The notes below the pieces were generated by a model, which was given only the letters and a program-made list of their open reading frames with translations, searched no databases and had not been told where the DNA came from. This document shows, in pieces, positions 3,932 to 53,115 of a DNA stretch of 64,000 bases; position 1 is the first letter of the stretch, and each line of letters starts with the position of its first letter. The position numbers and the translations under genes are program-made. Source of the stretch: Tribonema minus (Eukaryota; Sar; Xanthophyceae; Tribonematales; Tribonemataceae); contig JAFCMP010000009.1 in the NCBI GenBank assembly GCA_017506865.1, positions 124,001-188,000 of the forward strand, written 5' to 3'.

Positions 3932-4134
3932 CAGTTATGCACGCAATTGAAGACATCGTATGCGATTGACGACAGCGCACGACATGTGCATGCATGCCAA
4001 GAGTGAACATGCGAGCACGGCGACGATGCACACAAAAGCATAGCGCACTACACGTGTGAAACAAAGAAAGCGCGCGAGCACAGTGCACGCGAGGAATGAC
4101 GTGATATTGATGACAGAAACTGTTGCCGCGTTCG

Positions 4135-31064: not shown

Positions 31065-34000
31065 CTACACAGGCACCCGCTTGTCCTGTAGCTCCGCGAG
31101 ATTGCGACGCGATGTCGCTGTGTCCGGATGCATCGGGCCGAGCGCCTCCTCGCGGACGGCGAGCGCACGCTCGTACAACAGCGCCGCTTCCGTCAACTTG
31201 CCCTGAGCGTCGATGAGACCCGCGAGGTTGCTCAGCGACGTTGCCGTATCTGGATGATGTGGGCCCAGCACCTCCTCGCGGATGGCCAGCGCACGCTGGT
31301 ACAGTGGTGCCGCCTCCGCCAACTTGCCCTGAGCTTGGAGGACTAGGGCGAGGTTGTTGAGCACAAATGCCGTGTTGGGATGCCTGGGGCCCAGCGTTTT
31401 TTCAAGAATGTAAGAGCGCGCTCATACAACGCCACCGCCTCCGTCGACTTATCCTGATCTTTCAAGACACAGGCAAGGTTGTTGAGCGTAATCGCCATGT
31501 GTGGATGCTTCACGGCCAATTGCTCCTCGCAGATGGCGAGCGCGCGCTCGTACAATGGCGCCGCCTTGCCGGAATCGCCCTGAGTCTCAAAAAGATAAGC
31601 GAGGTTGTTGAGTGACGTCGCCGTGTTCGGATGCATCGGGCCCAGCACCTCCTCGCAGATGGCGAGCGCGCGCTCGTACAACGCCGCCGCTGATGCGTAA
31701 TCACCCTGCGTTTCAAGGAGACCGGCGAGGTTGTTGAGCGACGCCGCCGTGTCTGGATGCGTCGGGCCCAGCGACTTCTCGCGGATGGCGAGTGCGCGCG
31801 CGTACACAGGCGCCGCCTCCGTCAACTTGCCCTGCACTTCGAGTAGACCAGCCAGGATGTTTAGTGATGTCGCCGTGTCGGGATGCTCAGGGCCCAGCGC
31901 CTTCTCAAAAATGGAGAGCGCGCGCTGGACCAACGACGCCGCCCTGTCGTAATCGCCCTGAGCTTTGAGGAGACCGGCGAGGTTGTCAAGCGACATTGCC
32001 GTGGACGGATGCGTCGGGCCCAGCGCCTCCTCGCGGATGGCGAGCGCACGCTCGTACAACGGCGCCGCCTCTGTCAACTTGCCCTGAGCTTTGAGGAGAC
32101 CGGCAAGGTTGTTGAGCGACACCACCGTGGAGGGATGCGTCGGGCCCAGCGCCTCCTCGCGGATGGTGAGCGCACGCTCGTACAACGGCGCCGCCTCCGT
32201 CAACTTGCCCTGCACTTCGAGTAGACCGGCGAGGATGTTCAGTGACGTCGCTGTAGAGGGATGCTAGGGCCCAGCGCCTTTTAAAAAATGGAGAGCGCGC
32301 GCTGGACCAACGACGCCGCCCTGTCATAGTCGCCCTGAGCTTTGAGGAGACCGGCGAGGTTGTCAAGCAACATCGCCGTGGAGGGATGCGTCGGGCCCAG
32401 CGCCTCCTCACGGATGGCAAGAGCGCGCTCGTACAACGGCGCCGCCCTGCTGTACTCGCCCTGAGCTCCGAGGAGTGAGGCGAGGTTGCTGAGCGACGCC
32501 GCCGTGTCGGGATGCGTTGGGCCCAAGACCTCCTCGCGGATGGCTAGTGCGCCCTCGTACAACGGCGCCGCCTTGCCGTAATTGCCCTGAGATTTGAAAA
32601 GGAGATTGGCAAAGGTGTTGAGCGACGTTGCCGTATCCGGATGCTTCGGACCCAGCTCCGCCTCGCGGATGGAAAGTGCACGCTCGTACAACGGCGCCGC
32701 CTTGCCGTAATTGCCCTGAGCTTTGAAAAGGAGATTGGCGAAGTTGTTGAGCGACGTTGCCGTATCCGGATGCCTCGGGCCCAGCTCCGCCTCGCAGATG
32801 GAGAGTGCACGCTTGTACAATGGGGCCGCTGCGCCGTAATCGCCCTGGGCTTCGAGGAGACCGGCAAGGTTGTTGAGCGACGTCGCCGTGTCCGGATGCG
32901 TCGGGCCCAAGACCTCCTCGCGGATGGCGAGAGCGCGCTCGTATAACGGCGCCGCCTCACGCAGCACGTTGCGTTCCATCAGCTCGTCCGCCAAGTCCGA
33001 CAACCTTCGCGCCCAGCTGGCGTCTTTCCACTGTCCATCAGGCAAGCACGTCAATAATTTCCTGATATTCGGCAGCTCCGCCGACAGCAGCTCCATCGCC
33101 GGAAGAAGCGCACCTGCGCCATCTTTCGGCCGTCGTTTGCTCAGCCCATTGGCCAGTTCCAAGACGTGCAGCGCGAATGCGTCAAGGACGTGCTGTTTGT
33201 CCGCGACAGGCAACAGCTTCTCCGCCGCCAGGTGGGACAGTGCGTGCATGCTGTAGCGGATGCCGCCGGGGATGGGGACTGCAGTCGGCTGCTCGCGAAT
33301 GAGGGACGCGTTGCAGAGCTCTTGCAACAGCTCGTCAACAGGTCGCTCCTGAACTACGGACACAGCTGCCGCGCCTCTGGCACTGAATCCTCTGGGGAAG
33401 ACCGATAGCCATGTCAGCAGCTGCTGTGTGTCAGCCTCCAGGAAGTCTGTCATCCAGTGACACAGCGTGGTGACGCGGCCTGCGAGATCGGCCTTCTTGG
33501 GCAAAATCAGATGTTGCTCGTGCTCCGCTGCTTTGATGACATCCTGTGTACAGAGCAACAACGTGTACGCCTTGAGCTCATGAGGTGCAAGGTGTCTCAA
33601 GTTCAATTATGACAGGGTCTCTTACCGAGAGCTTCCTGTCATCCGATCCGATGAGGCCGGCGAGGGTTTCCATCATCATCGGGTTGTTACCGCAGTATCG
33701 AGCAATCGTGGACGCCTGAGCATCCGTCGACAAAGATTTGCTGCGAATAAGCTGCATTGCGGGCTGGACATCAAGCGGTGGCGCCATCTGCTTTGTGAAC
33801 CTGGAGAAGTTGCCGCAGTTCTCTCGCGTGACGACCATCAGTAGCACTGCCATAAACTCATGCAGCTTCGTCAGCACATCCCCGAGCGCCTGTGAACATA
33901 GCAGCGCAAGCAAAACAGCAGCCACTGAGTCCTTACTGTCATGCCCTACACGGTGACAACAAATTTGCAGGCAGGCAGACAATGGACACTCACATGTGAG

Positions 34001-35626: not shown

Positions 35627-37237
35627 CGCGACCCTCGTGTCTCCGCCGTGTTTTTTTTATGAGCAAAATTTTTGGGTGAAGTTTGTCCATATGGCGATGA
35701 CTTGCAGTTGAGTGAGACTGCGTTTCCAGGGCTAACAGAGGCAGGAGGAGGCTGCATCCTCTACGTCGATGATTGCAAGAGTGTCGAGCAACTGCTGACG
35801 CTCCTTGTTGCATCGCATGGCAGCCCTGGCGGCGGATATGCCACTTCAAGACCGTCAATTAGCCTTCTGCGGCAGCTGGGCTAGCGTTCTTGCTGGCGCC
35901 TCTTACAGGCAGCAGATATTGGCAATGCTTCAGTTTTGCTGCAATTGAAGATTCACCAGCCTTGCAGAAGACGGCGTGTGCAGCAGCTCACAACTGGATG
36001 TTGCGGGGGCAGCGCGGCATCGCTCAAGGAGCTGACGGGGAGCTGCGGCTTTGATGCCAGGGAGGATATCAAGCGCTGGCAATCATGAAAGAGGATAAGA
36101 TGGCACATGAGCATGCCACTGCGCTGTGGAAGCTGCTGCGCAGTGAGGTGCTCCTGCTGGAGGCGCAGCCAACGAAGGAGGACCTGGTGCTGTCACAGGA
36201 GCTGGACTGGAAGTGTTGTGGGCCTGCATTGACGTCTCAGGCGAGCTGTTGCATTCTGATCAACCACAAGCGAGCAAGCGCGATTGCAGCATAGTGGCAT
36301 GCTCTTCTGGCGCGTGCCATGATGCCTGTGCACCATTCCAGTCACTTGACAGCTCGCATGTGCTGCTCGTGACATGCCTGCGTGTCGCCGAGTAGTACTG
36401 GCACGTAGCTGGCAATAGTGAACCTGGGCCGCTCATGGAGCTGAGTGGCAGCACAAAACCTCTGCAGCGCCGTGTGAGCTGGCGTCAACGCAAACACACA
36501 TAACTATAGCGGCGGCGCGCACGCGTGCTGCCGTCCATGGAAGCTGGCGGCGGCGCGCATGTGTGCTTGGCTATTCACGGAGGCGGTGGTGTGCACTCAA
36601 TCTGCCACGTTAAGCAGCCAGCGAGAGTGACATAATCTTCACAGGTGATGCAACCTTGCTGCCGCCCATGGACGCAGGTGGCAATTGAATGCCATACTTT
36701 GCAGGTCATGTATTCTCAGGCTCAGCTGGTGGCGGTGATCACAATTGTTAAGCGTTGCTGCACATGCAGTACAGCTCGGTGCAATGCGCATCAGTGATGT
36801 GCCCATTCAACGTGAAGCCGGCGACATTGCGTCATGCGGCGGCGTGCACGCTCGCAGCGTCGCCCATTACATCTGGATGCTATGCGCACACGCATCGCTT
36901 GCAGGCACCGGGCAGCGGCGGGGGTACCCATGCACTTGGCGCAGCTTTTGGGTGTGTCAAAGCCTACCATGCTCGGTTCCTTGAGTAGGCGCTGCGTGGC
37001 GCGCAAATTTGTCTGCTTGGGGTGGCGGCACACTGGCTGCTGCGTTGCTTGGCTTGCTCTCGGGGTGCATGTTGGCTTGCAAAGGTGCAATTGCTATTGT
37101 GCAGCAAGTGCTGAGTTTGCAAAGCACGTTTTTATGATCAGAACCCATAATATGTGGACACCTGGTCTCTAAGCAACGGCGCGGGTATGCTACTGGTAAG
37201 GGGCCATGCATGGGGGGTTTAACTTTAAATTATTGCC
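35627..37237. other. Gap between NLR gene E and the retrotransposon
   Basis: About 1.6 kb with no recognised gene. Short frames here lack domains and conservation. Small duplications such as GCGGCGCGCACG(CG)TG followed by CCATGGAAGCTGGCGGCGGCGCGCATGTG (36510-36565) are present. Some of it should be the promoter of gene E, but no specific site can be identified. Confidence 0.5.
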
Positions 37238-37472
37238 TGTGGTGATTCTGTAGTATCACCAAGTGTTTGCACACAGTGCCCCAACAGGTCCATACCCCCA
37301 CCATGTCAGGTGTAACTTACGTTGAACTGCCAACTGCAAGTCTTGCGACCTGTGCTTTCAGAGCAAGGAAGCAAGCCTCTTAACACACACACTTTGGCTG
37401 AGTGGTGCTGTGCGTGTGAGTGCATTTGCTTTGCCTTGTTGTGGTGTTGTTTGCCATAGCAGCAGCACTTCA
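37238..37472 (+). repeat. 5' LTR (235 bp)
   Basis: Starts TGTGGTGATTCTGTAGTATC and ends CAGCAGCACTTCA, i.e. TG...CA. Compared with the 3' LTR it has an extra 11 bases within GTGTAACTTACGTTGAACTG. Promoter and polyadenylation signals would lie here; none is identified with confidence. Confidence 0.9.
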
Positions 37473-37474
37473 CT

Positions 37475-37492
37475 TGGTTCCGGTGCAAACAG
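37475..37492 (+). other. Candidate tRNA primer-binding site
   Basis: Two bases after the 5' LTR the sequence is TGGTTCCGGTGCAAACAG. It begins with TGG, as expected for a complement of a tRNA 3' CCA end. I cannot name the tRNA from the sequence alone. Confidence 0.5.
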
Positions 37493-37531
37493 ACGAAGCG
37501 TATTCTTCGCTGATCAGCGATCGACACGGAC

Positions 37532-38941
37532 ATGTCAAGTTACACGAGCCACGGTCACGCGACGCGACGCAGGTCTGCTGTCCGGAGCTCGCCACTCCTT
37601 GGCAACGACGCCCTCCTGACAGTGTTAGCCGACCCAGCTCTCACTCGCCGTAAGGCACGTGGGGGCCGATCCGAGTCCCAACCGGCGGGCCATGCCGGCA
37701 AGGACTCCGCTGCTGCGGCACCGCCTGCAGCAGCCACCAGCCGCCTAGCGGAGCCGAGTGCCGCTGTATCTCCTGCTATGGCCCAGCAGGACGACAACAG
37801 CAGCGCCGGCTCCTGCAAGGGCGGCCCCGCGTCAGCGCCAGAGCCACTCTTCGACGGCACGTCAGAAGCTCAAGGCGGCGAGACGCCATCATCGTCTGCA
37901 CAACGGCGCCCCGGCATGGCCGCCAGGGGACCCAGCAGCGACCTATCTGTCCCACAGGGACAACAGAACGACCCGTATGGCGCCCTGGCGCTCTCTAGCG
38001 CCTGCAACAGCCCCTACCACGGCTCCGTCTCTTTGGGGAGAGGGGGTGTCATGGTGGATCTCACTCAGCAAGTCAAGTCTCTCCTGCAGGCGGACATCCC
38101 TGAGCCTATCCGCCGCTCCCTCAACCTCACCGAAGCAGCCGTTGAAGACCTCCAGGGGAAGTTTGTCGACTACGCTGCGCACGTCGCGGACATGCAAGCG
38201 GGCGCCTACCAGCAGCGCCGCGAGCAGCAGCGCCGCGACACGGACCTCTCCGACGCGCTCACCAGTGATCCGCAGGCACTGCAGACTCGTCTGGAGGAGG
38301 CAGAGCGGCGCGCCTTCGTGTGGGCTGACCGCGCCATAGCCGCGGACGAGCGCGTGGCGGCGGCCGACACGCACGCCGCCGCGCTGGAGTCGCGGCTGGT
38401 CGCAGAGGAGGCGCGCAACGCCGAGCGCGTGGCAGCGGCCGACACGCGCGCCGCCGCGCTGGAGTCGCGGGTGGTCGCAGAGGAGGCACGCAGCGCCGAC
38501 AACCTCAGGACGGTGATGGTCTACGTCAACCGCCTTGAGGCCAAGGTCGACAGCCTCCTCGACGACGCGGCCGCATCCTCTCAGCAGCGTCGCCAGCGCT
38601 CCTATACGCCCGGCTCTGCGTACCACTCGGTGCAGCAGATGCTGTCGGCGCCGCGCGCTGAGCTTAACGAGCTTAACCTTCGCACCTTCGGCGGCAGCGC
38701 CGTGCGCCGCGACGACGATGAGCGCTCGCGCATCAGCATGCACTCGTCGCGCTCGCTGTGCGCCCCACGCCGGCCATTCAGCTCCCCCCGCACCCTCGCT
38801 CCGTCTACGACCTGCCGACCTCCTCCGCCACCGCCACCGTCCGCGACACCTCCGCGCGTCCCCCTGTGCCCTCTTTCTCCTTCTCTCTCGCTCTACCCCT
38901 CGCAAAGGCATCTGCGCGTGAGAGCGACAAAGGCAGCCTGA
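37532..38941 (+). CDS. gag: Gag, N-terminal part (coiled-coil rich)
   Basis: ATG at 37532 is the first after the 5' LTR and primer site. The frame gives 469 codons: a Ser/Ala/Pro-rich start, then a long helical stretch with tandem AADTHAAALESR/VAEEAR-type heptad repeats (about residues 270-330) likely to form a coiled coil for particle assembly. Sense-looking sequence (ISMHSSRSLCAPR) ends near 38765 and then becomes Pro-rich nonsense-like. The natural continuation is in the -1 frame starting in the overlap at 38758. Either a frameshift mutation or a programmed shift could explain this. Confidence 0.7.
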   Translation: MSSYTSHGHATRRRSAVRSSPLLGNDALLTVLADPALTRRKARGGRSESQPAGHAGKDSAAAAPPAAATSRLAEPSAAVSPAMAQQDDNSSAGSCKGGPASAPEPLFDGTSEAQGGETPSSSAQRRPGMAARGPSSDLSVPQGQQNDPYGALALSSACNSPYHGSVSLGRGGVMVDLTQQVKSLLQADIPEPIRRSLNLTEAAVEDLQGKFVDYAAHVADMQAGAYQQRREQQRRDTDLSDALTSDPQALQTRLEEAERRAFVWADRAIAADERVAAADTHAAALESRLVAEEARNAERVAAADTRAAALESRVVAEEARSADNLRTVMVYVNRLEAKVDSLLDDAAASSQQRRQRSYTPGSAYHSVQQMLSAPRAELNELNLRTFGGSAVRRDDDERSRISMHSSRSLCAPRRPFSSPRTLAPSTTCRPPPPPPPSATPPRVPLCPLSPSLSLYPSQRHLRVRATKAA

Positions 38942-39288
38942 AGGATGAGGCGCGTGCGCAGCTGGACGGCGCTGTGCGCGAGGCCCGCGGCCAGCAGCTG
39001 TGGACACTCACACAGACGCAAGCGCGCACGGACCCCATGCAGCAGCTGGCGGCGGAGAGGGCCGAGCACGACACCAAGGTCGCAGCGACGGAGGCAGCGC
39101 TGCAACGCGAGCGGGAGCTCCTGCGCGTGGAGCGCGAGGAGGTGGAGCGCGTCAAGGCGGAGCTCGCGTTGAGCGTGGCCAGCCGGGACGGCGACGGCAG
39201 CGAGAGCGTCCGCAGCAGCGCGCCGAGCCGCCGTCGCGACGGCGGCGGCGGCGGCGGCAGCGGCGGCGGCGGCGGCGACGGCAGTGGC

Positions 39289-39319
<31 letters not shown>

Positions 39320-40695
39320 GCGGCGGCAACGGCAGTGGCGGCGGCGGCAGCACGGCCGCTAGCTCGAGCCACGGGGGAGGCAGCGGGCCCAGCGCCGGCG
39401 CGGCACCGGCGTCAGTACAGGCGCCAGCGCCAGCGCCAGCGGCGCAGCCGGAGTGGCCGGGGCGGCCTGCAAGCGTGCCCATCGAGGGCTGGTTTGACGA
39501 GCGCGGCTACGCCATTACGCGCGTCAGCGTGCAGGTCAAGGAGTCTGACCTGCCCAAGACCGCCATCGTCGGCATGTCCATGGTGCCGCTCGTCAACCTG
39601 CACAAGATGCTGCCCAGCCTCATCAGGGAGTTCGCGGACGACAAGCGGCAGAAGCAGCGCCCCATGTGGCCTGCTCTCATCAAGGACGACGACTTCGGCT
39701 CGAAGTGGTTCTCCTCTGTTGTCCGCACCGTCATCAACTGCATCATCAGCGGCGGCGGCGACAACTACCTGGTGAGCTCGCTGGCAGGGGAGGCGGCGGA
39801 GTGGCAGAAGGAGGGGGAGGCCCTCACAGTCTCGGACACGGAGCGGCTCGAGTGGTTCTTCACTCGCATCGCTAAGTTCTTGGAGCTGCGGCGTCCTGCG
39901 GAGCTTGCGACTGACCTCGTCATGTGGGTTGTCAAGCCCGGCTTCCCACTCAAGGACTTCGTGTACGAGTACTCTGCTGCCTCCACCGCTATTCTCTCCA
40001 CTGACCCCAAGCAGGACCTGTTCGTCTTGTCTGCGCTGCTGGAGGTCTGCCGCCAGCAATACGCCATCACTGCTCCGTCATGGACCCACATTGACGAGGA
40101 CCCGCACAAGCACACCACCCGCAACTTGCTGGAGATCCTGCGCCGCCAAGCTGAGCGCGCGAAGTACCAGGCGACGTCGCGCGAGGACAACCGCGCCGTC
40201 TACCCCAGGGACCTGCGCTCGTACAGCAAGGGCGTCATCAGCGGCGGCGGCAGCGGCTTGCCACCCAAGCAACAGCCGCAGCAACAGCAGCAACAGACGC
40301 CCAGCCTTGCCGAGAAGAACGCGAGGCGCGCGCAGGAGCTGCTTAAGCGCCAAGAGAACCAGATCAGCTTCATGGTCTACCAGATGAATGCCTTCAGCTC
40401 CAGCACCGGCCCCGCACGCACTTGCTTCAACTGCGGCAGCGACCAGCACGTCTTCGCGCGCTGCACTCAGCCCTACAGCGCGGCCAACTGGCAGGCGGCA
40501 GCTGAGAAGTTGCCGTGGGTTGCCAAGTTCCGCCCCTGCGGGGACGAGGACTTCAAGCGGCTGTGCGCAAAGGCGCTGGAGCGCGCAGCGAGCGGTGATC
40601 GCGGGCGGTCAGCTCAGGTGGTCTATGAGAACAGGCGGAGCGGCGGTGGGCGCGGGCGCGGCGGGCACGGCGGCGGCCGCGGCGGTGACCACTAG
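38758..40695 (+). CDS. gag: Gag, C-terminal part with CCHC zinc knuckle
   Basis: Frame overlapping the N-terminal gag part and ending in TAG at 40693. It has a coiled coil (AAERAEHDTKVAATEAALQR), a Gly/Ser low-complexity run from a GGC repeat (39240-39355), a capsid-like helical region (about 39480-40200; PMWPALIKDDDFGSKWF, RLEWFFTRIAKFLELR), and one zinc knuckle CFNCGSDQHVFARC (C-x2-C-x4-H-x4-C) near 40427. The C-terminus is RGGRGRG-like and probably binds RNA. Confidence 0.8.
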
Positions 40696-40738
40696 GGGTG
40701 TGACCCCGCGCCAGCCCTCGGCGCGGGGGAAACACTAG

Positions 40739-42061
40739 GGGGTACTGCTGCGGCTGGGGGCGGTAGTGACGCACCGGACGACAGTCAGCGCGCACGGCGC
40801 GCCAGCGGCGGACGCGGCAGCTGCGCACCAGCAGCCGCAGATGCCCACGCTTGTGGTAGCCGCTGCTATGCAGCAGCAGTCGCAAGCCACGGTGGACACA
40901 GCCTCGACTTCAGAGCCACCGCCCTCCGCTGCAGCTACTACGCAGCAGCAGCCCATCCCTGCAGTTGCTACGCAGCAGCAGCCCGTTGCTGCAGCTGCAC
41001 CGCAGCAGCAGCGGCTCCCCGCCCCTTCTGCGGCGCCTGCAGGCGGCGAGCTTAGGCCAGACGCCCCAACCTTTGTACCGGCGCCGTCTGCGGGGCCGGG
41101 GCGGCGCGCACGGCGACGCCGCGGCGCGCGCGAAGAAGGCCCCAAGGCGGCGGGTTTTCCGCTTGTGACCCCCTACTCCGCAGCGGCGTTTGCGCCGCGC
41201 GAGCCGGCCGCGCCTGCGCGCGGCACACCGGCGCGGCGTGTTTCTGCCACGCACAGCGCCGGCGCGGGGGGCACTCCAGACCAAGGGGGGGTGAAGGCTG
41301 GCTCAGCAGCTTCGCCAGCAGCGGACGCGACGGCGCAAGACGCGCCCTCTTCTCTTTCGCCTGCTTCTGCAGCGGCAGCGGCGCCTTCGGCGACGCCAGC
41401 TGCAGCGGACGCGGCGCACGCGCCGGCGACGGCGCCTACCCCTGCTGCTACGCCCGCGATGGCGCCTGCACCTTCGAGTGCTCCCATTCCAAGCGCTGCT
41501 ACTTCAACATCTGCAACCTCAACATACGCGCCAGACCCCCCTGCGCCCTCCCCTTCTAAGCACACGCGCGACGCCGCCGGCGCCACCTTCATCAAGGGCG
41601 CGATCGTGCTGTACGTCAAGGCAGGCGCCACGGACGGCGAGCGCGCCAAGATCCTCGCCATAGACGACCAGAACGGCGGCGAGCCCTCATACTCTATCAT
41701 GCTACTCAGCAACTGCCAAGAAGTCGACACCATCGCTTCTCGCCTGCGCCCATGCCCGCCAGCGACGGCGGCAGCGGCGCCGCCAACTTCTGCATCTACG
41801 CCTGCCCCTCCGCCGGCGCCAGCGGCGCGCACGCCGCTCGGCACCTTCGCCAACACAGCGCCGGAGCGCGTTCAGTGGGCGGACCTCAAGCAGTGCGCGG
41901 CGGCGCGCCTGGCGCAGATAGAGGAGGTTCAAGCAAGGTCGCGCTTGCACTTGCAGGGCGCCTTCGAGGATGGCATTTGGGGCAGCATGCTGACGCCAAC
42001 GCTGCAGCACAGCGAGGCGACGGACATGGCAGAGATTGCTGAGGGGAGCATGGACAATTAG
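40739..42061 (+). CDS. Ala/Pro/Gln-rich ORF with SH3/Tudor-like stretch
   Basis: The frame is open between a TAG at 40736 and a TAG at 42059 and has no obvious ATG near its start, so it may depend on readthrough or frameshift from gag. About 270 residues of Gln/Ala/Pro low complexity precede a globular part, FIKGAIVLYVKAGATDGERA...GEPSYSIMLL...DTIASRLRPCPP, which has the spacing of a small Tudor/SH3-like barrel often seen in algal and protist retroelement proteins. Its role is unknown. Confidence 0.55.
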   Translation, partial: GVLLRLGAVVTHRTTVSAHGAPAADAAAAHQQPQMPTLVVAAAMQQQSQATVDTASTSEPPPSAAATTQQQPIPAVATQQQPVAAAAPQQQRLPAPSAAPAGGELRPDAPTFVPAPSAGPGRRARRRRGAREEGPKAAGFPLVTPYSAAAFAPREPAAPARGTPARRVSATHSAGAGGTPDQGGVKAGSAASPAADATAQDAPSSLSPASAAAAAPSATPAAADAAHAPATAPTPAATPAMAPAPSSAPIPSAATSTSATSTYAPDPPAPSPSKHTRDAAGATFIKGAIVLYVKAGATDGERAKILAIDDQNGGEPSYSIMLLSNCQEVDTIASRLRPCPPATAAAAPPTSASTPAPPPAPAARTPLGTFANTAPERVQWADLKQCAAARLAQIEEVQARSRLHLQGAFEDGIWGSMLTPTLQHSEATDMAEIAEGSMDN

Positions 42062-42079
42062 GGGCGCGATGCGGAGGAG

Positions 42080-44330
42080 GTGGACGCGCAGCGAGTCGCG
42101 GCGTACGTGGAGGACCTCATTGCGGCGCTCTACACACCGGAGAGCCGCGTGCGCAGCGGCGGCACCGACGCGCGCGACAGCGCTATCATGGCGCACTACC
42201 GCGAGGTCGCAGCGCTGGAGGCGCAGCTTCTCCCCGTTGCACAACAGGCTGAGGCAAGTAAGTTGCGTGGCTCAATACACGCGGACTTGTTCTCCCTATT
42301 TAAGTGCAGACTGCGCTCCTCACGCGCCAAGCGTTTTGCCTTCCTCAAGCGCGCACTGTGGGACTCCGGCGCCTCTGTTACAGCCATCTCGCAGAGTTGC
42401 TATGACCGCCTGGTAGCCAAGGGCGCTATTGACAGCGACGATGTGCGCAGGTTGTCAGCACCACGCAGCGTAGGGGGCATAGACACTAGCGCCGCTCCAC
42501 AGAAGGTCACAACCCTGGTAGCATTGCACTTTGATGCTGCTGGCCCCGCTGGCCTTTCTGCTCCAGTCATGGCGTTAGTCGTGCCGCGCTTGCCATACAA
42601 TCTCATCTTAGGGCGTGATTTCATCAACCGTCACGCATGGACGGCTTCCAATACACCCCTTTTCGGCAAAGATGTAGACCCCAACAATCCCCCTTCGCCC
42701 GGTGTTACAGCCCCCGGCAGCACTGAGTATAAGTTTGCCGGCACGCCATCGCCTTCGCAGCCTCCGCAGTCAAGCAGCGATCCACCCGCGCCTCCCGTTT
42801 TCGTGTACGGCAAAGACCAGAACTGGGTTGCAGTCGTGCGCGTAGCTGCCCAATCGCCAGAGACCCCTGCAGATTCCACAGCCCCAGTTTGGATCCAAAT
42901 CATGGAAGCAGACGGCATTACGCCAGTGCAAGCGCATTGCGAGCAGCTAGTGCAAGTCATACTGGCCCCAGCCCACAGCGCCACCATAGCTAGCACAGAG
43001 CTTGCCACCGGCGTCCATGCCAAACCTGTGCTTCTGCAGCGGCGCGCCAACACGTCGCTCGACTTGCCACGCGGCACCGTGCTTGGCAAGACCATGCCGC
43101 TGCATTGCGCCGCGCCTGAGGATCTGCACCGTGAGTACACGGCGCGCCCACGCGCCGTGGAGGTCTACTGCGGCGTCGGCGGCCTGGCAGAGGGCCTACG
43201 GGGCTGCATGGACATCAAGCTTGCAGTCGACTGCGAGCAGCGCGCCCTCGACGTCTACAGCGCCAACCACCCCGACACGCGGAAGCTGCAGCGCGACATG
43301 ACGCTGCCTGCAACACGCGCCGAGATCATCGCCGAGATGCTGCGCTTGCAGGCGCAAGCGCTCGTCGGCGGCCCGCCATGCACGCGCTTCTCACTCTCCG
43401 GCACGCGGCAAACTGCGCTTGGCATACCGCACCTCTACTACATGCTGGAGGTCGCCATGGGCGCCAGCTGCCTCCGCATGCTCATGTTTGAGAATGTGCC
43501 CGGGCTGCAGAGCGCGCCGGAACTCGCAGAGTTCTTGCGCTGCGCTCACCACGGCGGCTTCACCTTGCAAGAGAAGCTGTACGTGCGCGGCGACGACGCG
43601 CACTTGGCGCAGACACGGCACCGCGTCTTCTACATTCTGGCGCGCCCTGGCGACGGTGAACGCGACGCGGCACGCTTGCGCGCTTCATTGGCACAGGCGC
43701 GCGAGCTGCTCGCGTTCGCTAAGGCGGGCGCGGCGTACGAGACCGTGCGCGAAGCAACAGGGGACGTCTTGGACAGCGCAGGACAGCGGCGGCAGTACTT
43801 CACCACGGTCGGCCGCAACCGCGCCGCCAAGCAGGTTTACAGCATGGACGGCCCCGCCCCCACCACGCGCGGCAGCACGTACCGCCGCGACCCCACGCCA
43901 ACCGGCGTGCAGTCCATCATGCGCCCCTGCGACGCCACTCAAGACCCCGCCGAGTTTGCGCGCTCTGAGCACCTACCATGGTCAGCGCTGCGTGCAGTGC
44001 ACAGCTTCCCTGCCTCGTATCAGTGGAGCGCGCCAGAGCCTGGCGACACCACTGCGTATGCACAATACCTTGCAAACGCAGTGGCACCGCGCATGGCGGA
44101 GCTAGTCGGCGACATCCTGCAGCAGAGTGGTCTCTTGCATGAGATCACTGAGCAGTCGTCGCGACCGCTGCCGCCGGCCATCCAGACGCTCACCAACACA
44201 GGCACGCATACCACCTTCGGCACGTACGGCGTCAAGCTCGCAAACGAAGCACTGCAGCGCATGCGCGAGGCGGCGGCGCCCGCGGCGGAGTCCTGCAACG
44301 ACGGCGAGGCGCGCGCACAACTGCGGCAAC
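42080..44330 (+). CDS. Retropepsin fused to C5-cytosine DNA methyltransferase
   Basis: One frame, in phase with the preceding ORF but separated from it by TAG 42059. Residues counted from 42080. Retropepsin: LWDSGASVTAIS near 93-104 and LILGRDFI near 174-181. From about residue 355 a methyltransferase has the family motifs in order: I EVYCGVGGLAEG (from Glu361), IV GGPPCTRFS with catalytic Cys434, VI MFENVPG (Glu471-Asn-Val), VIII QTRHR (511-515), a target-recognition-like region, IX-like LRAVHSFPASYQW, and X ANAVAP (665-670). This is a full catalytic set, about 335 residues, and would transfer methyl groups from S-adenosylmethionine to cytosine C5. After about 44250-44330 the frame turns into Leu/Arg-rich sequence while an Ala/Pro/Thr-rich linker continues in another frame, so a shift occurs there; the frame formally stays open to 44710. 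Confidence 0.88.
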
Positions 44331-44651
44331 TACAACTGCAACTTCAACTGCCCCGCGCGGCGCGGCCCCTGCCGCGCATGCGCGCTCTACGGCTACACCA
44401 ACTGGCGCCGCGGCCCACGCTGCGGCCCACGCTGCGACCACGCCAACACCTGCACCACCACCGGCTACGCCTGCCGCGGCTCCTGCCGCAGCGGCGCGCG
44501 ACTCTACACCCACTGCGCGTCCGGCTGGCATGCACGCTGCGGCCCCTGCCGCGGCGGCGCCACCTGCGTGCGCGCCGCACGACTCATCCCCGCGCCAGCA
44601 CGCTGCGACGTTCGCAGCGGCGACTCCAAACCCTTTTACAAGGGGGGGTGA

Positions 44652-45885
44652 AAGTGGCAGCGACGCGTTTTGTTCGGCTGCGACATTTTCGCGCTGGACA
44701 TGCGCACTGACGTGTGGAGCAGCGCCAGCGTCGTGGCAGCAGAAGCGCGTGCCGATCATGGCGGCGTTGATGCCGACGCGGCAGCACCAATGGACGCAGC
44801 GGCTGTTTGCGAGGCGCTACAGCAGCAGCTGGGTGAGTCAGTCTCATTTGATCAGTCTCAAGAGGGAGCTAAAGTTCACATACCTGAAAGTGGCGGCGTT
44901 GCTTTAGGGACCTATCAGCACAAGGACCCTTCAGTTAAGAAAGCACTTGAAGAGGCTCGCAAAGTTCTGCCTGCACACATGCTTGCAGTTCGCGTAGACC
45001 TCGAGGGCTGGTCAGCAGACCAAGTGGGTAGGCTGTGCTTCATGTTTGCAGACTTAGCAAACAAAACCTTCTCAACAGATAAGTGGGATGTTGGGTTCTG
45101 CGATACCCTGCCTTTCCGCTTAGATCTCAAAGAAGGAGCCACGCCTTGCCAAGACCGGCCCTACAGGTACTCCCCCGCGTTGACAGCGCTGATCAAAGTG
45201 GAGATTGACAAGCTGCTTGCTGCTGGCATAATCCGCCCTTCGCTGTCCAACTGGGCTTCCCCTGTAGTTGCAGTGCTCAAGCCAGACGGCACAGCGCGCA
45301 TTACAGTCAATTACAAGAAGCTGAACGCCCAGACCATAGTGCCGCAGATACCCATACCAAACATCGAGGACTTGCTCAACAGCCTTGGTGGGGCGTCTGT
45401 TTTCAGCACTATGGACATCACTAGCGGATACTTCACCTCTTCCATCAGCCCCGACGCCATCCCCCTCACCGCCATGGTGACCTCGTTCGGCCTCTACGAG
45501 TGGTTACGTTGCCCCCAAGGCAGCGCCGGTGCTCCTGGCCATTTCACACGGCTCATGCAGACAGTACTTGCAGGTCTCAGCCGCGTGCAGCCCTACATTG
45601 ACAATGTTATAGTGTCCAGCACATCCATTGATCAGCACCTTGATGATCTTAAGGGTGTCTTTGCCCGCTTTCAGACACATGGCATGAAGCTGGCCCCCGC
45701 CAAACTGCATGTAGGGTGCAAGCACGTCAAGTTTCTGGGCCACATTGTCGGCGTAGATGGCATCAGGCCTGATCCTTCTAAAGTTCAAGCCCTGGTAGAA
45801 ATGCCTGAGCCCAGCAACCTCTCGCAGCTGCGCGCGTGGCTAGGCCTCGCCAACTACTATCGCCGCCAACTACTATCGCCGCTTT
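44652..45885 (+). CDS. pol: Reverse transcriptase (YIDN active site), frameshifted at 3' end
   Basis: Ty3-type RT palm and fingers: TPCQDRPYRYSPALTALIK, IRPSLSNWASPVVAVLKPDG, ARITVNYKKLN, FSTMDITSGYF (first catalytic Asp), then PYIDNVIV at 45594-45605. There the family has YxDD, but the last Asp codon is AAT (Asn). KFLGHIVGVDGIRPDP and LRAWLGLANYYR follow. A 16-bp tandem duplication (45851-45866 and 45867-45882) throws the frame just before the connection to RNase H. The extreme N-terminus before about 44670 is uncertain because low-complexity frames overlap. Confidence 0.88.
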
Positions 45886-46956
45886 GTGCGCGGCATGGCT
45901 CAGCTTGTAGCCCCTCTCACCGCTCTAATGGCGAAAGGCTTGGAGTTCAACATCAGCAGCGATCAGCGGCGCGCCATGCGCGCTGTCAACGAGGCGTTGG
46001 CGCTGCACACCGTCATGCGCTACCCTGACTACGCTGCTGCCGCCAGCGGCGCGCGCCCCTTCATCCTCGCCACCGACGCCTGCAAGGAGGGCTTCGGCGC
46101 TGTGCTGTCACAGGCTGACGCCGACGGCGTTGAGCAACCCATTGCCTTCACCTCGCGCGCGACGCTACCCAACGAGCGCAACTGGTCTACCACGGACTTG
46201 GAGGCTGGCGCGATCGTCAACGGCATCAAGAAGTTCCGCCACATGTTGTGGGGTACGCCTTTCACGCTCCTCACCGACCACCGCGCCTTGCAGTACATGG
46301 ATTCCATCCGTGAGCGCACCGCGCGCGGCGGGCGCTGGGCCGAATTCCTCTCCGCCTTCGACATCACCGTTGCCTACAAGAAGGGTGCCGATCACGGCAA
46401 CGCCGATGGCCCGAGCCGCAACCCCCTTCCTGCCACCGCTGAGGACGCCGCCGAGGCGTCGCGAGAGCGGCTCCTACACGCCTACGGCCTGGAGGCCGGG
46501 GACGCGCACCGCTTGGAAGCGCTCGCCACCGGCGAGTACTTTCAGATCTGCATGCTCATCACAGACGCAATGCGTGGCGGCGGCGTGGACGAGCTGCTTG
46601 CCGTGCAGGAGGCAGAGGGCTCATCACCTGCGGCTTGCGACGCTTTCGCTGAGCATGAGGAGCTCGGCCGGCTCACGCCTGGCGACTGGCAGCGCGAGCA
46701 GCGCGACGACCCACAAATTGGCGCGCTGTACGTCTACGTCGCCGACGGCACGCTGCCAGCTGATGCAGCACTTGCATCTCAGGTGAAACTGTGGGCAGGC
46801 GTCTTCCGCGCTACACCCCTACGGCAATTGCCAGCTTTTAGTGCGCTTGCCTCCGGAGAACCCACACTCCGCGCAGATTGTAGTGCCCCGCTCGTTGCGC
46901 GCTCTGGTCATGGACGCTTTTCACGGCAGCACTTGGTCAGGTCATCAGGGCATTAA
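45886..46956 (+). CDS. pol: RNase H domain and linker to integrase
   Basis: Continues the polyprotein after the 16-bp duplication: RGMAQLVAPLTALM, ILATDACKEGFGAVLSQ (catalytic Asp), NWSTTDLEAGAIV, FTLLTDHRALQYM and ADGPSRNP are the usual Ty3 RNase H signatures. Coding sense runs to about 46830, after which integrase continues in another frame. Removal of the RNA strand during cDNA synthesis is the family role. Confidence 0.85.
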   Translation: MRGMAQLVAPLTALMAKGLEFNISSDQRRAMRAVNEALALHTVMRYPDYAAAASGARPFILATDACKEGFGAVLSQADADGVEQPIAFTSRATLPNERNWSTTDLEAGAIVNGIKKFRHMLWGTPFTLLTDHRALQYMDSIRERTARGGRWAEFLSAFDITVAYKKGADHGNADGPSRNPLPATAEDAAEASRERLLHAYGLEAGDAHRLEALATGEYFQICMLITDAMRGGGVDELLAVQEAEGSSPAACDAFAEHEELGRLTPGDWQREQRDDPQIGALYVYVADGTLPADAALASQVKLWAGVFRATPLRQLPAFSALASGEPTLRADCSAPLVARSGHGRFSRQHLVRSSGH

Positions 46957-48469
46957 GCGCACTACTGAGCGTGTTCGTGCACAATGTTGGTGGCCTAGCT
47001 GGACGCGTACAGTTAGCTACTGGGTCAGCCACTGCTGGCCTTGCCAGGCATACAAGCGTACAGGCAAGCTCTCGCGCCACCCCCTAGTTTGGCGCGACAT
47101 GCCCCCTCACCCTTTCCACACCATTGCCATCGATCACTTCGGCCCCCTGCCCCTCAGTAGCAGCGGCCACAGCTACATCTGAATTGTAATGGACATGTAC
47201 AGCGGCTGGGTTTGGTGTTACCCTATCACAACAGACAACTTCAACTCTGTTGGCACAGCGCACATCCTAGTTGACCAACACAGCACGCTGCACGGAACTC
47301 CTGCCAAGCTCCTTAGTGATCGCGGTAGCATCTTCATGTCAGCTCTAGCACATGCTTTCTACTTGCAAATGGGCACTCGTAAGCTCAGCACTACGGCATA
47401 CCACCCCGAGTGCAATGGCAAGTGTGAGCGGTTCATGCAAGAGTTGGCGCAGATGCTTGCGATGTCAGTTAGACTAAGTGAAGGAGGCGGTGACTGGGTG
47501 CCACATGTGTCATTTGCACACAACACGTCGCACAACCGTGCAACTGGCGCCACCTCGTATTTGTTGGCCACTGGTCGCGAGGCTCACTACGCCTTACACC
47601 AGATCCTTGGTGAGCTTAAGCAGCCCCTTGCCCCTGCCGGTACCAGCCCCTCCGCATTAGAGTTGGTGCAAGAGCTCACGCAGCGCCAGCGTGCGGCGCA
47701 CGATGTCGCTTCTCAGCGGCACGCTCTGCGTCGCGCCCGTGTTCTGCGTGAGAACGAGGAGCTCGCGAACGCTTTTGGCTTGCGCACGCACTACAAGGTT
47801 GGCCAACGCGTGTGGTACTACCACGCGCCGCGCACGCACACGGCCATTACGGACGTGGATCTTGACCCCAAGTCGCCCAGGTTCAGTCAGGCACTGCGCA
47901 CGCTCTTCAGCAAGAAGATGCTTGACCGCTGGCAGGGCCCCTATCGGGTCCTGGCCGTCGGTCCCGGGACGTTTCAAGACCGGCCCGTGCAGGCAAACGT
48001 GCTTGTTGCAGAGCTTCCAGAGGGCCCCACGCGCATCACTCGCGCGCTCGTCAAGCACTGCCGCGACCCCACCCTGGCGACCAACGAGGGCCCACCGGGC
48101 GCGCTGCCCTCGGGCTTTGCCAAGTACCTCCTAGCAAAGCACTGGCGCGGCATGTCACCTGGCTCGCTTACGCTTGAAGACGCCAACCACGACGACGAGC
48201 GTCACGGCGTGGAGGCCATCCTACAACACCGCATCGCCGTGCAGGCGCGCGATCGTGGCCAGCGCCTCGAGTACCTTGTGCGCTGGGAGGGCGACGTCGC
48301 CAACTCGTGGGAGAGCGCCCTCAACATGGACGCATGCGCATCAGTGCTACGCGACTACTGGACGACGCAGAGCCGCGCCACCGAGCTGCGCGACGACCTG
48401 AAGATCCCCGGTGCGGGCACTGAGGTCGTGCGACGTGAGCTGCAGAAGGTCGAGAAGCGGCGTGGCTAG
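46841..48469 (+). CDS. pol: Integrase with chromodomain, in-frame TGA
   Basis: Zinc-binding HHCC region AFHGSTWSGH...HCWPCQAYK, then AIDHFGPL (first Asp), a TGA stop at 47180-47182, and the same frame continuing MDMYSGWVW, LLSDRGSIFM (second Asp) and YHPECNGKCERF (Glu of the DDE triad). After a basic region (KMLDRWQGPYRVLAV) the C-terminus (VEAILQHR...LEYLVRWEGDVANSWESALNM) is a chromodomain, which in chromoviruses guides integration to histone-marked chromatin. Stop TAG at 48467. Confidence 0.9.
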
Positions 48470-48474
48470 GCGGC

Positions 48475-48867
48475 GTGTTAGCGCAATGTGGTCGCAGCTC
48501 GTACGAGCTCGCGCCTGGCGCACGCGCAGTGCTTTCAGCGCTATCAGATGCGGCATTGTTTAGCGCAGCAGTGCGTGGCATGATGGTCATGGTCGTGTAC
48601 AACATGACTGGCGACGACGGTGTAGTGTATCAGCAGTGGTTTGAAGCTGAGGTAATCCGCGTTGTTGTGCCCAGCTCCACGCGTACTCGCTCCAAGCGTA
48701 GGGCATCAGCTAAGAAGCTTAGGGTGTTCTGGGTAGCTGAGGGCAAGTACTCAGAGCTCTCGTTTGTGGCTGAAACGTATGGCACAGAGCCTACGTCAGC
48801 TGCAGGCACTTGGTTTCTTGTTGGCACACAGGCACAGGTTGACGCATTGGCCAGCATTGCGGAGTAA
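48475..48867 (+). CDS. Small ORF after pol, possible Tudor/Agenet-like fold
   Basis: About 130 codons between the chromodomain and the 3' LTR. No ATG at the start of the frame; the first good ATG pair is near 48580 (MMVMVVYNM). Then follow YQQWFEAEVIRVVVP, a basic RTRSKRRASAKK stretch, LRVFWVAEGKYSELSFVAE and a short C-terminal tail. W-F-E-A-x-V followed by a charged loop and a V-x-W/F strand resembles small chromatin-reader barrels, but this is weak. It occupies the position of the accessory or env-like ORF in other LTR elements; it has no membrane segment. Confidence 0.4.
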   Translation: MLAQCGRSSYELAPGARAVLSALSDAALFSAAVRGMMVMVVYNMTGDDGVVYQQWFEAEVIRVVVPSSTRTRSKRRASAKKLRVFWVAEGKYSELSFVAETYGTEPTSAAGTWFLVGTQAQVDALASIAE

Positions 48868-49117
48868 GGCATAGCATGTGTGTGCATCGCATGTGTGTGC
48901 CTGCTAAGTGTGCACAACTTTTGTGTGCACCGCGTAGGCGTTAGCTGTAGCTTTCTCAGAAGTCGTGCGTAGCGCATATTAGCATGCTATCTGGTGCTTC
49001 GCATCATCAGTGAGAGGCAGCTTTGCTATAGCGTTACGTGCAAGCGGTCATTGTTGCAGTGTAGTTGCAGCAGGGAAGTCATGGTTGCTTCCCCATTATC
49101 GGGCTATGCATAGCCCT

Positions 49118-49129
49118 AGGGGGGGTGAC
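49118..49129 (+). other. Polypurine tract
   Basis: A-G7-TGAC directly before the 3' LTR, the expected place of the plus-strand primer. The same A-G7-TGA string occurs internally at 41284-41294 and 44641-44651. Confidence 0.75.
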
Positions 49130-49353
49130 TGTGGTGATTCTGTAGTATCACCAAGTGTTTGCACACAGTGCCCCAACAGGTCCATACCCCCACCATGTCA
49201 GGTGTAACTGCCAACTGCAAGTCTTACGACCTGTGCTGTCAGAGCAAGGAAGCAAGCCTCTTAACACACACACTTTGGCTGAGTGGTGCTGTGTGTGTGA
49301 GTGCATTTGATTTGCCTTGTTGTGGTATTGTTTGCCATAGCAGCAGCACTTCA
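49130..49353 (+). repeat. 3' LTR (224 bp)
   Basis: TG...CA ends as in the 5' LTR; collinear except for the 11-bp indel and a handful of substitutions. Followed by the TGCC target duplication. Confidence 0.9.
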
Positions 49354-49674
49354 TGCCCGAATGTCAATTGCCCTAGAACTGAGCAGGATTTTGATCCTGT
49401 AAATACATTGACCACTTCTGTTGCATCAACTCTGAACAGTGCATTGTAAATGCCATGCAGTGCACATCTCAATTTTGTGCGCAAATGCTTCATACAGGCA
49501 TGGACTCTCACCATTTCGGACACATGTGGCATCAAAATATGGCAAACTGGTCCTGCTTTTGCACGATTCTGCAGCTGTGCCCTTGCAGCGGCCATCACAT
49601 GTGCTGTGCTGTATGTCTTTATGACGCTGCACACCAGACGCCGACAAATTTTAGGCCTGAAGCCGCGCTGCGCG
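49354..49674. other. Short stretch between two LTR elements
   Basis: 321 bases with no recognised gene or repeat. AT content is higher than in the flanking elements; probably pre-insertion host DNA. Confidence 0.5.
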
Positions 49675-49934
49675 TGTAGTGAGGCAACCCTAGGTGGAGC
49701 AGTAGTTGAAGTAGGACTTGCAGTGCGAATGCCTTTTTGTGCTTATAAGACACCTTACACCATGACCTCCTGACTGGACTTCTTTCCACTGCCTTGGCTG
49801 CTGGCATTGCTTCCATTTCATATGGGCTTGCACACAGTACACGGGCGTGTGGATCTGAGGTCTCAGGAGTGCTGAGGTGTGTAGTTTTGTAGCAGTAGAT
49901 CATACACAGCAGTGAGGAATCTCATGCTAAATAT
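49675..49934 (+). repeat. Left LTR of the 3.4-kb element
   Basis: Begins TGTAGTGAGGCAACCCTAGG and ends ...CTCATGCTAAATAT. A TGGCAGATCTCGGCAG string begins within its last base and could be a primer site, but this is weak. Confidence 0.75.
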
Positions 49935-49982
49935 GGCAGATCTCGGCAGTCCTTAACCGGCCAGGAGACGCGTTGGAAAGGA

Positions 49983-52262
49983 TTGTTAGCTTTCCGCTAT
50001 TTCCGTCGGCACCTCTGCTGCACGCAACCCACGAGATCCGGGCAGTCAGCAGCTGTAAGCGGCGATAGCAGAGATTTTCGAGATTTCAACAGCTGGGGGC
50101 GTGCTCTTCACAAGGCGCCCTTCGGCTCTCAACTAGCAGCGGCAGTAGCAGCTGCTCCAGCATACCGCCACCTTCCTGGTGGCACTTGCTCAACACCATC
50201 AGCAGCTCAGACACCTTTTGCTGGAAGCAAAATGGTGGGGGGGGGGCGTGCTATTGTGAGTCAGGCTGTAGCGCATGAGCTGCATGCCTGGTTGATCGAC
50301 GAGGGGCGTTGGGGCTGGCGCTGGTTTTACAGCAACTCCAGCAGCAACGATATGTCGGACAAGCTCGATGAGGTGCTCAGCGCTATGGACTACTTCTTCG
50401 CGGCTGAGGAGAAGCTGCTTCAGAAGCAAACCCGATCCAGGGCACGCCTTGATGAAGTCAGACAGGGAGTCGCTGAGGAGCAGCAGAGAGTTAGCATGCT
50501 GCAAGAGCGGCTGCAGCGAAGCAAGGAGGCGGAGGCAGCAGCGCAGCAGGCGGAGCTCAGCTTGCAGCAGCGTTTGGCAGGTGCGGAATTACGCTTGCAG
50601 TCGCAGGTTGCAGATGCGGCAGCGCAGGCAGCAGATCTGCAGGCGCGCATCAACAAGCTCAACAGGCAGAACACAGAGCTGCTCAATGAGGCCGAGGAGG
50701 CAGAGCTGCGGTGCTCCAATCAGATAGACCACTATGAAGACGTGCAGTATACGCTTGAGCTACGCATCAAGGAGCTGGAGTCATCAGCAGCAGGTATGCT
50801 AGTTCTGGAGCTACAACAACGACTTCAACGCGTGGAAGCAGAGAATGCACAGTTGCGTGCCGGAGCGGAGCATCCAGCAGCAGCTGCTCAAGGCACTTCA
50901 ACCTCCACTGCAAGTACGCAGACGGACAGCAGCTGCGAAGTACCCGCGGCAGCAAACATGGAGGCAGGCAGTGTGGTTGACGCTCCTCGCTTGCAGCAGT
51001 TGGAGCGGCAATGCGCTGCCGATTCAGCAGCGCTTTTGCAGCTGAGGAGACGGGTGTCGGAGCTGGAGGAGGATGCTGCGAGGAGCAGAGCGTGTGCAGA
51101 GGGGCTGCAACAGCGGCTGAGGACCGCTGATGCGCAGTGTGTGCACCTGCACATGGTGTGCGACGCGGGAGCGCGCGCAGGCGCTGCACTGCGTGAGCAA
51201 CTCGCATGCGCACAAGCAGCCAGCTTGGTGTCGGCATCTACTGGCGGCAGCGGCACTGACGCTCTCAACAGCGGCAGCGGCATCAGCTTCGGCACAGCGC
51301 CACGCTCACCAGTGGCTACAGTGCTGGCGTCGGCGCGTGCAGGCGACGACAGCGCGGACAACAACAGCTGCGCCAACAACAGCGGCGGCGCATGTGCCGC
51401 ACGCTCAGCGCCGACGGAGGCGCTTACAACATCGCAAGCATGCAGCAGTGGCGCGCTTGGCAGCAGCAGCACTGCAGCTGTGCTCTCAGCGCCGACAACG
51501 GCGGCGCATGCAGCTGTGCGCGCATGCGACATCGGCGGGCACAACAGCAGCGGCACCGCAGCCGCGCTTTCGGCACCGGCGACAGCGGCGCTTTCATCTC
51601 TGCGCGCACGCAGTGGCGCGCGTGACAGTGGCGGCACTGCGGCCCCGCTCCCAGCGCGCGGCGGCGGCAGTGGCGGTAGCGGCGGCGCGCGCGGCAACGG
51701 CGGCGGCGGCGGCAGCAGCGGCGCACGCGGCGGCGGTAGCGGCGGCGCGCGGGGTGGCAGCGGCGGCGCGCGAGGCGGCGGCGGCGGCGCACGCCACCAA
51801 AGCGGCGGCACGGGCGCAGCGAGCTTGCCGACGGCGACGGCAACGGTGCCGATGCAACAGCGCGTGGGCGTCAGCGCTGCGCGGTGGGGCGGCCGCTCTC
51901 ACGGCGGCAGCAGAAGTGGCGCGAGTACTGGGCGGCGCATACGCTTAAGGAGCAACAGCGCCTTCGTGACCAGCAGGCGCGTCACAAGGCGGCGCTCGGA
52001 TGGCGCACAAGCATGTGCGGGCGTGGCGCTGGCGCAGAGCCGCCAGTCACACCAGCAGCGGATGTGCGCAGCGGCGCACGCACAAGTGCAGCAGTGTCTT
52101 TCAGCAGCGATCAGGCTGTTCACAGCACGTATTGTGCTGATGTTTGTGAGACACAGATGGCAGCAGCTCTTTTGTGCGCCATGTGTCTTACCAGTGCATC
52201 TTGAGCGGTTTGGCTCATGGGGGCGCTTGTTTGCAGGTTCACTGTTGAGCCTGTACGTTTAG
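49983..52262 (+). CDS. Coiled-coil, Gly-rich ORF of the 3.4-kb element
   Basis: Open for about 759 codons; the first credible ATGs are near 50232 (MVGGGRAIV) and 50352 (MSDKLDEVL). From about residue 125 a long coiled coil (EEKLLQKQTRSRARLDEVRQ, LQARINKLNRQNTELLNEAE, LQQRLQRVEAENAQLRAG) runs about 270 residues. Then come Ala/Ser-rich repeats, a GGC-encoded Gly/Arg/Ala tract (51650-51800) and a basic Arg-rich C-terminus. A nucleic-acid-binding, self-associating gag-like protein would fit, but no capsid or zinc motif is seen. The Gly tract creates long Ala/Arg frames on other strands, which I ignore. Confidence 0.5.
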   Translation: MLAFRYFRRHLCCTQPTRSGQSAAVSGDSRDFRDFNSWGRALHKAPFGSQLAAAVAAAPAYRHLPGGTCSTPSAAQTPFAGSKMVGGGRAIVSQAVAHELHAWLIDEGRWGWRWFYSNSSSNDMSDKLDEVLSAMDYFFAAEEKLLQKQTRSRARLDEVRQGVAEEQQRVSMLQERLQRSKEAEAAAQQAELSLQQRLAGAELRLQSQVADAAAQAADLQARINKLNRQNTELLNEAEEAELRCSNQIDHYEDVQYTLELRIKELESSAAGMLVLELQQRLQRVEAENAQLRAGAEHPAAAAQGTSTSTASTQTDSSCEVPAAANMEAGSVVDAPRLQQLERQCAADSAALLQLRRRVSELEEDAARSRACAEGLQQRLRTADAQCVHLHMVCDAGARAGAALREQLACAQAASLVSASTGGSGTDALNSGSGISFGTAPRSPVATVLASARAGDDSADNNSCANNSGGACAARSAPTEALTTSQACSSGALGSSSTAAVLSAPTTAAHAAVRACDIGGHNSSGTAAALSAPATAALSSLRARSGARDSGGTAAPLPARGGGSGGSGGARGNGGGGGSSGARGGGSGGARGGSGGARGGGGGARHQSGGTGAASLPTATATVPMQQRVGVSAARWGGRSHGGSRSGASTGRRIRLRSNSAFVTSRRVTRRRSDGAQACAGVALAQSRQSHQQRMCAAAHAQVQQCLSAAIRLFTARIVLMFVRHRWQQLFCAPCVLPVHLERFGSWGRLFAGSLLSLYV

Positions 52263-52853
52263 ACACCACACCGCTTGCATACCATCAGCAGTGTAGTGTC
52301 TGGGGGCAATTGTCGTACAGGTCGAAACGCGTTGCATTGACCACCTGGGCGCACAAACCCACCCGCCCACCCTTTAGTTTTGTTTCAGTTGTACAAGCGC
52401 ACTTCTTTTGCGTGTGTTACACAAACGCTGGGGGAAATAAGTGCGCAGTGCCAACATGTCGGGGGCGTACATACTATAGTAGCTGTAGAATCATGGTGCA
52501 CTTGCTTGCGCACTTGCTTGCGTTGGTTGCGCAGTGCCAACATGTCGGGGGCGCATATAGCAGCGGAGCAAGTTGCTTGCTTTCAAGTTTGTTTGTTGCA
52601 GCGTTGGAATATTGTATTGTTTTGCAACAACGTAGTTGCCATTCCAGCCAGATGCACCACATTCTTTCTGAGACGTGTTGGTGGCGGAGGGTTGCTGGTA
52701 TATGCCCGTGTTATTTGAGAGTTTCGGCGGTCGCGGAGGACTGCTGCGCTTGCATTGCATTTCATAGCAGTATTGCATGTGTAGTATATAGGGCGCCTCA
52801 CATGAGTGCATGGCTTTCGACTTGGGGAGTGGAAGAGCCATGCAGGGGGCGAT

Positions 52854-53115
52854 TGTAGTGAGGCAACCCTAGGTGGAGCAGTAGTTGAAGTAGGGCTTGC
52901 AGTGCGAATGCCTTTTCGTGCTTGTAAGACACCTTACACCATGACCTCCTGACTGGACTTCTCTCCACTGCCTTGGCTGCTGGCATTGCTTCCATTTCAT
53001 ATGGGGTTGCACACAGTACACGCGTTTGTGGAACTGAGGTCTCAGGAGTGCTGAGGTGTGTAGTTCTGTAGCAGTAGATCATATACACAGCAGTGAGGAA
53101 ACTCATGCTAAATAT
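52854..53115 (+). repeat. Right LTR of the 3.4-kb element
   Basis: Direct copy of 49675-49934, roughly 95 percent identical by eye. Confidence 0.75.

Follow-up and report, generated by a model that had tools for sequence, protein, structure and literature searches.

The window analysed here is a 64,000-nucleotide stretch of the Tribonema minus genome (assembly GCA_017506865.1, contig JAFCMP010000009.1, positions 124,001 to 188,000 of the forward strand), in which a Ty3-type long terminal repeat (LTR) retrotransposon spans positions 37238-49353 and is flanked by a TGCC duplication. The element carries a complete C5-cytosine methyltransferase (MTase) domain, of putative activity, between its protease motifs and its reverse transcriptase (RT). 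It is one decayed copy of a multi-copy Ty3-type family, and two Ty3-type lineages in this genome, the window's own (families A-C) and another (families D-F), carry MTases. The features of the window element are as follows:

37234..37237, target-site duplication (TSD) TGCC, left (sequence)
37238..37472, + strand, 5' LTR, TG...CA, 235 bp, with an 11-bp indel relative to the 3' LTR (repeat comparison)
37475..37490, + strand, candidate primer-binding site, begins TGG, no tRNA matched (sequence alone)
38722..40695, + strand, gag-like open frame with a CCHC zinc knuckle (by eye; without Pfam match)
40739..42061, + strand, open frame in phase with the protease-MTase frame, one stop between (without Pfam match)
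42362..42622, + strand, retropepsin-like motifs DSGA and ILGRDF (motif match; without Pfam protease match in the window)
43154..44104, + strand, C5-cytosine MTase, PF00145, catalytic Cys codon at 43379-43381 (Pfam, motifs, predicted fold)
45276..45749, + strand, reverse transcriptase RVT_1 (Pfam)
46054..46359, + strand, RNase H, RT_RNaseH (Pfam)
46883..47059, + strand, integrase H2C2 zinc finger (Pfam)
47180..47182, + strand, in-frame stop within the integrase region of the window copy
47186..47407, + strand, integrase core (rve), 18.6 bits, below the cut-off of 32.6 (Pfam)
48209..48361, + strand, chromodomain PF00385, 25.8 bits, cut-off 25.1 (Pfam)
49116..49129, + strand, polypurine tract CTAGGGGGGGTGAC, preceding the 3' LTR (sequence)
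49130..49353, + strand, 3' LTR, 224 bp
49354..49357, TSD TGCC, right (sequence)

The two LTRs, the short TSD, the polypurine tract and the Pol order RT - RNase H - integrase are those of a Ty3-type element, and the chromodomain C-terminal of the integrase, found in the window and in families A, B and C, is that of a chromovirus. The polypurine tract recurs in a locus of family A and in another of family B. Chromodomain scores reach 29.4 bits in B and 33.7 in C; in A the C-terminal piece scores 27.1 bits when taken alone, against 24.5 within the full frame. The family A integrase core likewise falls just under its cut-off (31.3 bits). A first-pass annotation, made from the DNA letters alone, had proposed both the chromodomain and a C5-cytosine MTase between the protease motifs and RT of a Ty3-type element; the first is recovered above its cut-off, and the second is confirmed by Pfam, LTRs, TSD and motifs.

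Motifs I, IV (with its Cys), VI, VIII and X, together with the predicted fold, identify the window domain as a putative C5-cytosine MTase. The matches listed for the element MTases in PDB profile and fold searches name DNMT1, DNMT2 and bacterial enzymes, DNMT2 topping the PDB profile search for each MTase group (2.5e-14 and 2.8e-17). DNMT3 is not named among the 49 and 51 PDB sequences obtained for the two groups at E up to 0.01, nor in the best 50 rows of the fold searches, its presence not being thereby excluded. These comparisons suggest that the element MTases belong to a class other than DNMT3. A polyprotein search of the protein database gave 3265 candidates for family A region 76-420, with none at E 1e-5.

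Copies, constraint and surroundings of the element

The window's own assembly (158,181,000 bases, 554 contigs) was searched with the window MTase protein, yielding at least 122 matches (380 candidates, 119 scored), and with the Pfam family, yielding at least 123 matches (378 candidates). Identity to the window MTase is 78-79% in family A (frames up to 2,763 amino acids (aa)), mostly 62-65% in family B (frames up to 2,936 aa) and 37-39% in family C, while a few closer copies range from 74 to 83%. Several MTase loci of the first search lie in single frames of 2,400-2,936 aa. Families D, E and F, defined by profile range in the Pfam-family search, reach frames of 3,376, 3,501 and 3,180 aa, respectively; 79 rows were assigned to them by profile range and frame length, and sampled loci alone were read through. 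Frames of at least 2,000 aa were found in 26 of 89 rows from the MTase-protein search (out of 122, extra pieces beside kept rows being omitted) and in 38 of 79 rows from the Pfam-family search (out of 123, omitting A-C type, stand-alone, G, H and unplaced rows). The A and B copies that were read through, one of each, have a single frame for MTase, RT, RNase H, H2C2, integrase and chromodomain; a family C copy has the same domains in broken frames.

Five of six family A1 loci are identical in MTase DNA over 1,014 nucleotides (nt), and all 12 family B loci lie within 0-2 nt of the first B locus. Ungapped difference counts are high for L014 (78) and L015 (457) and in the regions flanking L005 and L021; indels are the likeliest cause. 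Near-identical copies at so many loci indicate recent spread. In family B, many copies are no more than ~10 kb from the end of a contig (e.g. C13:6047, C41:8297, C64:4631, C536:646148), and this may reflect either a clustering near telomeres or a failure of the assembly to cross the repeat; other copies are found deep inside long contigs (e.g. C66, C279, C301, C551).

The searches also returned divergent MTases in open frames of 553-1,204 aa, grouped as families G (L044, L046 and L047, at C212:393739, C212:363356 and C312:335932) and H (L036 and L045, at C204:43083 and C549:212220), and stand-alone MTase frames of 367-390 aa (L031, L032 and L033, on C223 and C181). A tree that included two of these stand-alone MTases puts both outside the group of element MTases.

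The ratio of non-synonymous to synonymous substitution (dN/dS) was computed for 11 pairs; NG86 values are quoted because YN00 failed for eight of them, and NG86 dS is itself undefined for A-C and D-E. The nine other pairs range from 0.06 to 0.28: 0.063 for A1-A2 (at dS 0.41), 0.134-0.141 for the window against A, 0.144 for D-D2, 0.191 for C-C2, 0.201 for E-F, 0.221-0.235 for comparisons with B (window-B, A-B) and 0.283 for D-H. The MTase domain is under purifying selection. A multi-copy, constrained domain within the element frame is what characterizes a retrotransposon-owned DNMT, and the first-pass claim that the MTase belongs to the element, as opposed to having been transduced once into this copy, is borne out by the many loci, the long single frames and the constrained substitution. 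The same annotation had also considered it noteworthy that the MTase of the decayed window copy is free of frameshifts; this is not significant, a lesion-free MTase being expected by chance at ~0.51.

Beside the element, long minus-strand frames of TPR_12/TPR_10 repeats with NPHP3-like TPR matches (3750-6707, 10415-13237, 17164-19446 and 31343-33606) form an expanded gene family. Just downstream of it, a 239-nt direct repeat (95%) at 49670-53416 is found together with related inverted arms at 49675-49737, 52843-52916 and 53343-53416, perhaps another small mobile element.

Two lineages, two methyltransferase positions

The protease motif precedes the MTase in the window, A, A2 and C, and follows it in D, E and F; the motif pattern matched neither of two family B loci. 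One D, one E and one F copy each encode, in a single frame and in this order, MTase, RT, RNase H, H2C2 and integrase. The family D protease is a Pfam match at residues 650-733, after the MTase, at 22.7 bits and under the 28.2 cut-off, and families E and F have a VDCGA or VDNGA motif at residues 551 and 566, between MTase and RT. Family F (L066) combines the protease motif VDNGA with SSC in MTase motif IV, both unusual, though dN/dS between E and F is 0.20. RT identity within the first lineage is 83% for A-B and 64% for A-C (64-65% for C to A and B), and within the second 58-59% for D-E and D-F and 90% for E-F; between lineages it is 28-32% in nearly all comparisons, with one window piece at 36% to D. 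When the C-terminal pieces of families D, E and F were searched with an E limit of 5, no chromodomain was among the matches listed; a Tudor-like model matches all three weakly, in the same position in each (0.031, 0.13 and 0.0028, all below cut-off). This second lineage, with its MTase at another position, could not be seen from the window alone.

MTase trees were built from 74, 57, 42 and 48 hand-chosen rows, long-branch rows such as G being removed after the first. The A-C MTases and their metagenome kin form one clade (support 100/100 and 100/99 in the 42- and 48-row trees), and the D-F MTases with H and P0121 form another (100/99 in both). One reading of these trees is a single ancient capture, in which the MTase was inherited from an ancestor shared by the two Ty3 lineages, or passed from one to the other, and later changed position. 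Both clades do belong to a wider assemblage, supported at 99/96 and 95/96, that also takes in a Rhizobium protein and free-living MTases of metagenome origin (~390-505 aa), and approximately unbiased (AU) tests do not reject a single clade of all element MTases (p 0.199 and 0.276), so that the MTase sequences appear compatible with one or two gains. Against a single capture, the best trees join D-F with the free-living MTases and the Rhizobium protein, weakly (81/68 and 87/90), and the MTase position relative to the protease motif and the distance between the RTs favour two gains or a swap. We hold a single capture to be possible, though less likely than not.

A capture independent of those already published, as the first-pass annotation had suggested, is in keeping with the lack of DNMT3 among the matches listed, which fits an origin separate from the published DNMT3 cases; independence itself is not proven. 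A bolder reading, to which we give slightly less than even credence, is that the two distant Ty3 lineages separately gained non-DNMT3 orphan MTases of the same kind at different Pol sites, each beside a chromatin-reading domain (chromo or Tudor-like), as convergent reader-plus-writer retroelements.

The metagenome protein P0002 is up to 78% identical to the window MTase over 70% of the query, and P0003 and P0004 have an upstream linker that, by eye, resembles that of the elements; elements of this kind therefore probably occur elsewhere. Viral contigs searched with A1, A2 and P0126 gave no relative. With the free-living group A4 as query, viral contigs yielded 12 loci and prokaryote genomes 25; frames were read for 27 of these 37 loci, and 17 were placed in a tree; the six viral rows in the 48-row tree branch apart from the element MTases.

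A proposed role and its rivals

The reading that we prefer, and consider somewhat probable as a whole, is that of a Pol-borne MTase inherited with its element, kept by selection and methylating the element's complementary DNA (cDNA), with the chromodomain steering integration and a second lineage arising by capture or swap. It is grounded in the anatomy, the copies, the constraint and the predicted fold. In Ty3-type elements, RT, integrase and the other Pol enzymes travel in the particle, and with the MTase in frame with them, packaging is the simplest reading. The MTase would be made within the Pol polyprotein, packaged along with RT and integrase, and could methylate fresh double-stranded cDNA before or at integration. 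The chromodomain might then direct integration toward marked chromatin, so that a new copy would arrive pre-marked like resident silent DNA and be tolerated instead of being handled as foreign. The second lineage, with its MTase upstream of the protease, would most likely reflect a second capture or a later swap.

Several observations weigh against this proposal. Stops interrupt the MTase in several copies (e.g. L012 and L017), motif IV of family F (L066) reads SSC and not PPC, and repeat breaks at contig ends may have caused single copies to be counted twice, inflating copy number. The MTase is less constrained than RT and integrase, evolving about twice as fast at dS above 1: for A-B, dN/dS is 0.235 for the MTase vs 0.131 for RT and 0.124 for integrase (dS 1.0 to 1.9; dS was undefined for five of the nine rows of this comparison). 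The observed/expected CpG ratio over the window element is 1.03, without trace of heavy CpG decay, and so lends no support to lasting CpG methylation of this copy, though the target context may differ. Finally, the enzyme that tops both PDB profile searches, DNMT2, acts on RNA. For this last reason an RNA substrate, either the element transcript or a primer tRNA, as for DNMT2, is a real rival, albeit one that we regard as unlikely.

Alternatively, the MTase might restrain its own element by marking its copies for silencing, thus keeping their number tolerable. Self-restraint is among the possibilities published for such elements in the consulted part of PMC5890265, but the recent spread and the CpG ratio near 1 speak against it, and we give it little credence. 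A neutral passenger, or a host-gene fragment caught by chance in the window copy, would agree with the decay of that copy and with the even chance of an intact MTase, yet is hardly credible beside the many copies and dN/dS below 0.3 in all nine defined pairs, and for the family it is refuted by these data. An assembly artefact or contaminant, which the many copies near contig ends could suggest, is equally far-fetched given the copies deep within long contigs and a window element with LTRs and TSD at 167 kb of a 545-kb contig.

Mobile DNA in this genome may thus write its own chemical marks. Should elements indeed acquire and retain DNA-marking enzymes time and again, methylation would serve the parasite as a tool and not just the host as a weapon. 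With its two MTase positions, several families and numerous young copies, this genome offers a natural experiment from which one could learn at what point of the life cycle the mark is needed and whether element enzymes shape host methylomes.

Comparison with known systems

Retrotransposons that encode cytosine MTases have been described before, one of them a Gypsy element whose enzyme is of the DNMT3 type; cDNA self-methylation has been proposed for such elements, SymbioDIRS among them, and a DIRS MTase is reported to methylate CGs (PMC5890265, consulted in part, as were the other sources cited here). DAM- and DCM-bearing Ty3/Gypsy and DIRS elements have also been mentioned in general terms for several groups, including green algae (PMC6338049). 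The closest likeness is KnitGypsy-Dnmt3 of Klebsormidium nitens, like the window element an LTR Gypsy with a cytosine MTase in its Pol frame, intronless, present in several copies and constrained (Ka/Ks <0.2). Its MTase is DNMT3-related, whereas DNMT3 is not named among the matches listed here; its repeat structure is DIRS-like, whereas the window element has two plain LTRs; and the consulted text describes one such family in Klebsormidium, against two lineages and two MTase positions here (PMC5890265). SymbioDIRS-Dnmt3 and SymbioLINE-Dnmt of Symbiodinium share a high copy number, MTases within retroelement frames and more than one retroelement type per genome, but are DIRS and LINE elements with DNMT3 or orphan-class enzymes, in contrast to the integrase-bearing Ty3 elements described here; the orphan LINE class was compared by description only (PMC5890265).

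ChloroDNMT and the orphan DNMTs, likewise compared by description only, are also eukaryotic MTases outside DNMT1/2/3/5/6 (PMC12344493). The Sola1 transposons of Ectocarpus, with similar elements in green and red algae, encode ParB and a predicted N4C/N6A MTase; they too are algal mobile DNA with a DNA-methylating accessory protein, but are DNA transposons with a different MTase chemistry (PMC12477816).

In our literature search, in which most items were not examined in full, no report of a Ty3 element with a non-DNMT3 C5-MTase was recognized and none was found of a single genome with two MTase-bearing Ty3 lineages that differ in MTase position; no such element was seen in the consulted parts of PMC9998398 and PMC9033089. 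MTase-bearing retrotransposons themselves being already known, what is new here is the presence of two Ty3 lineages carrying MTases at two positions.
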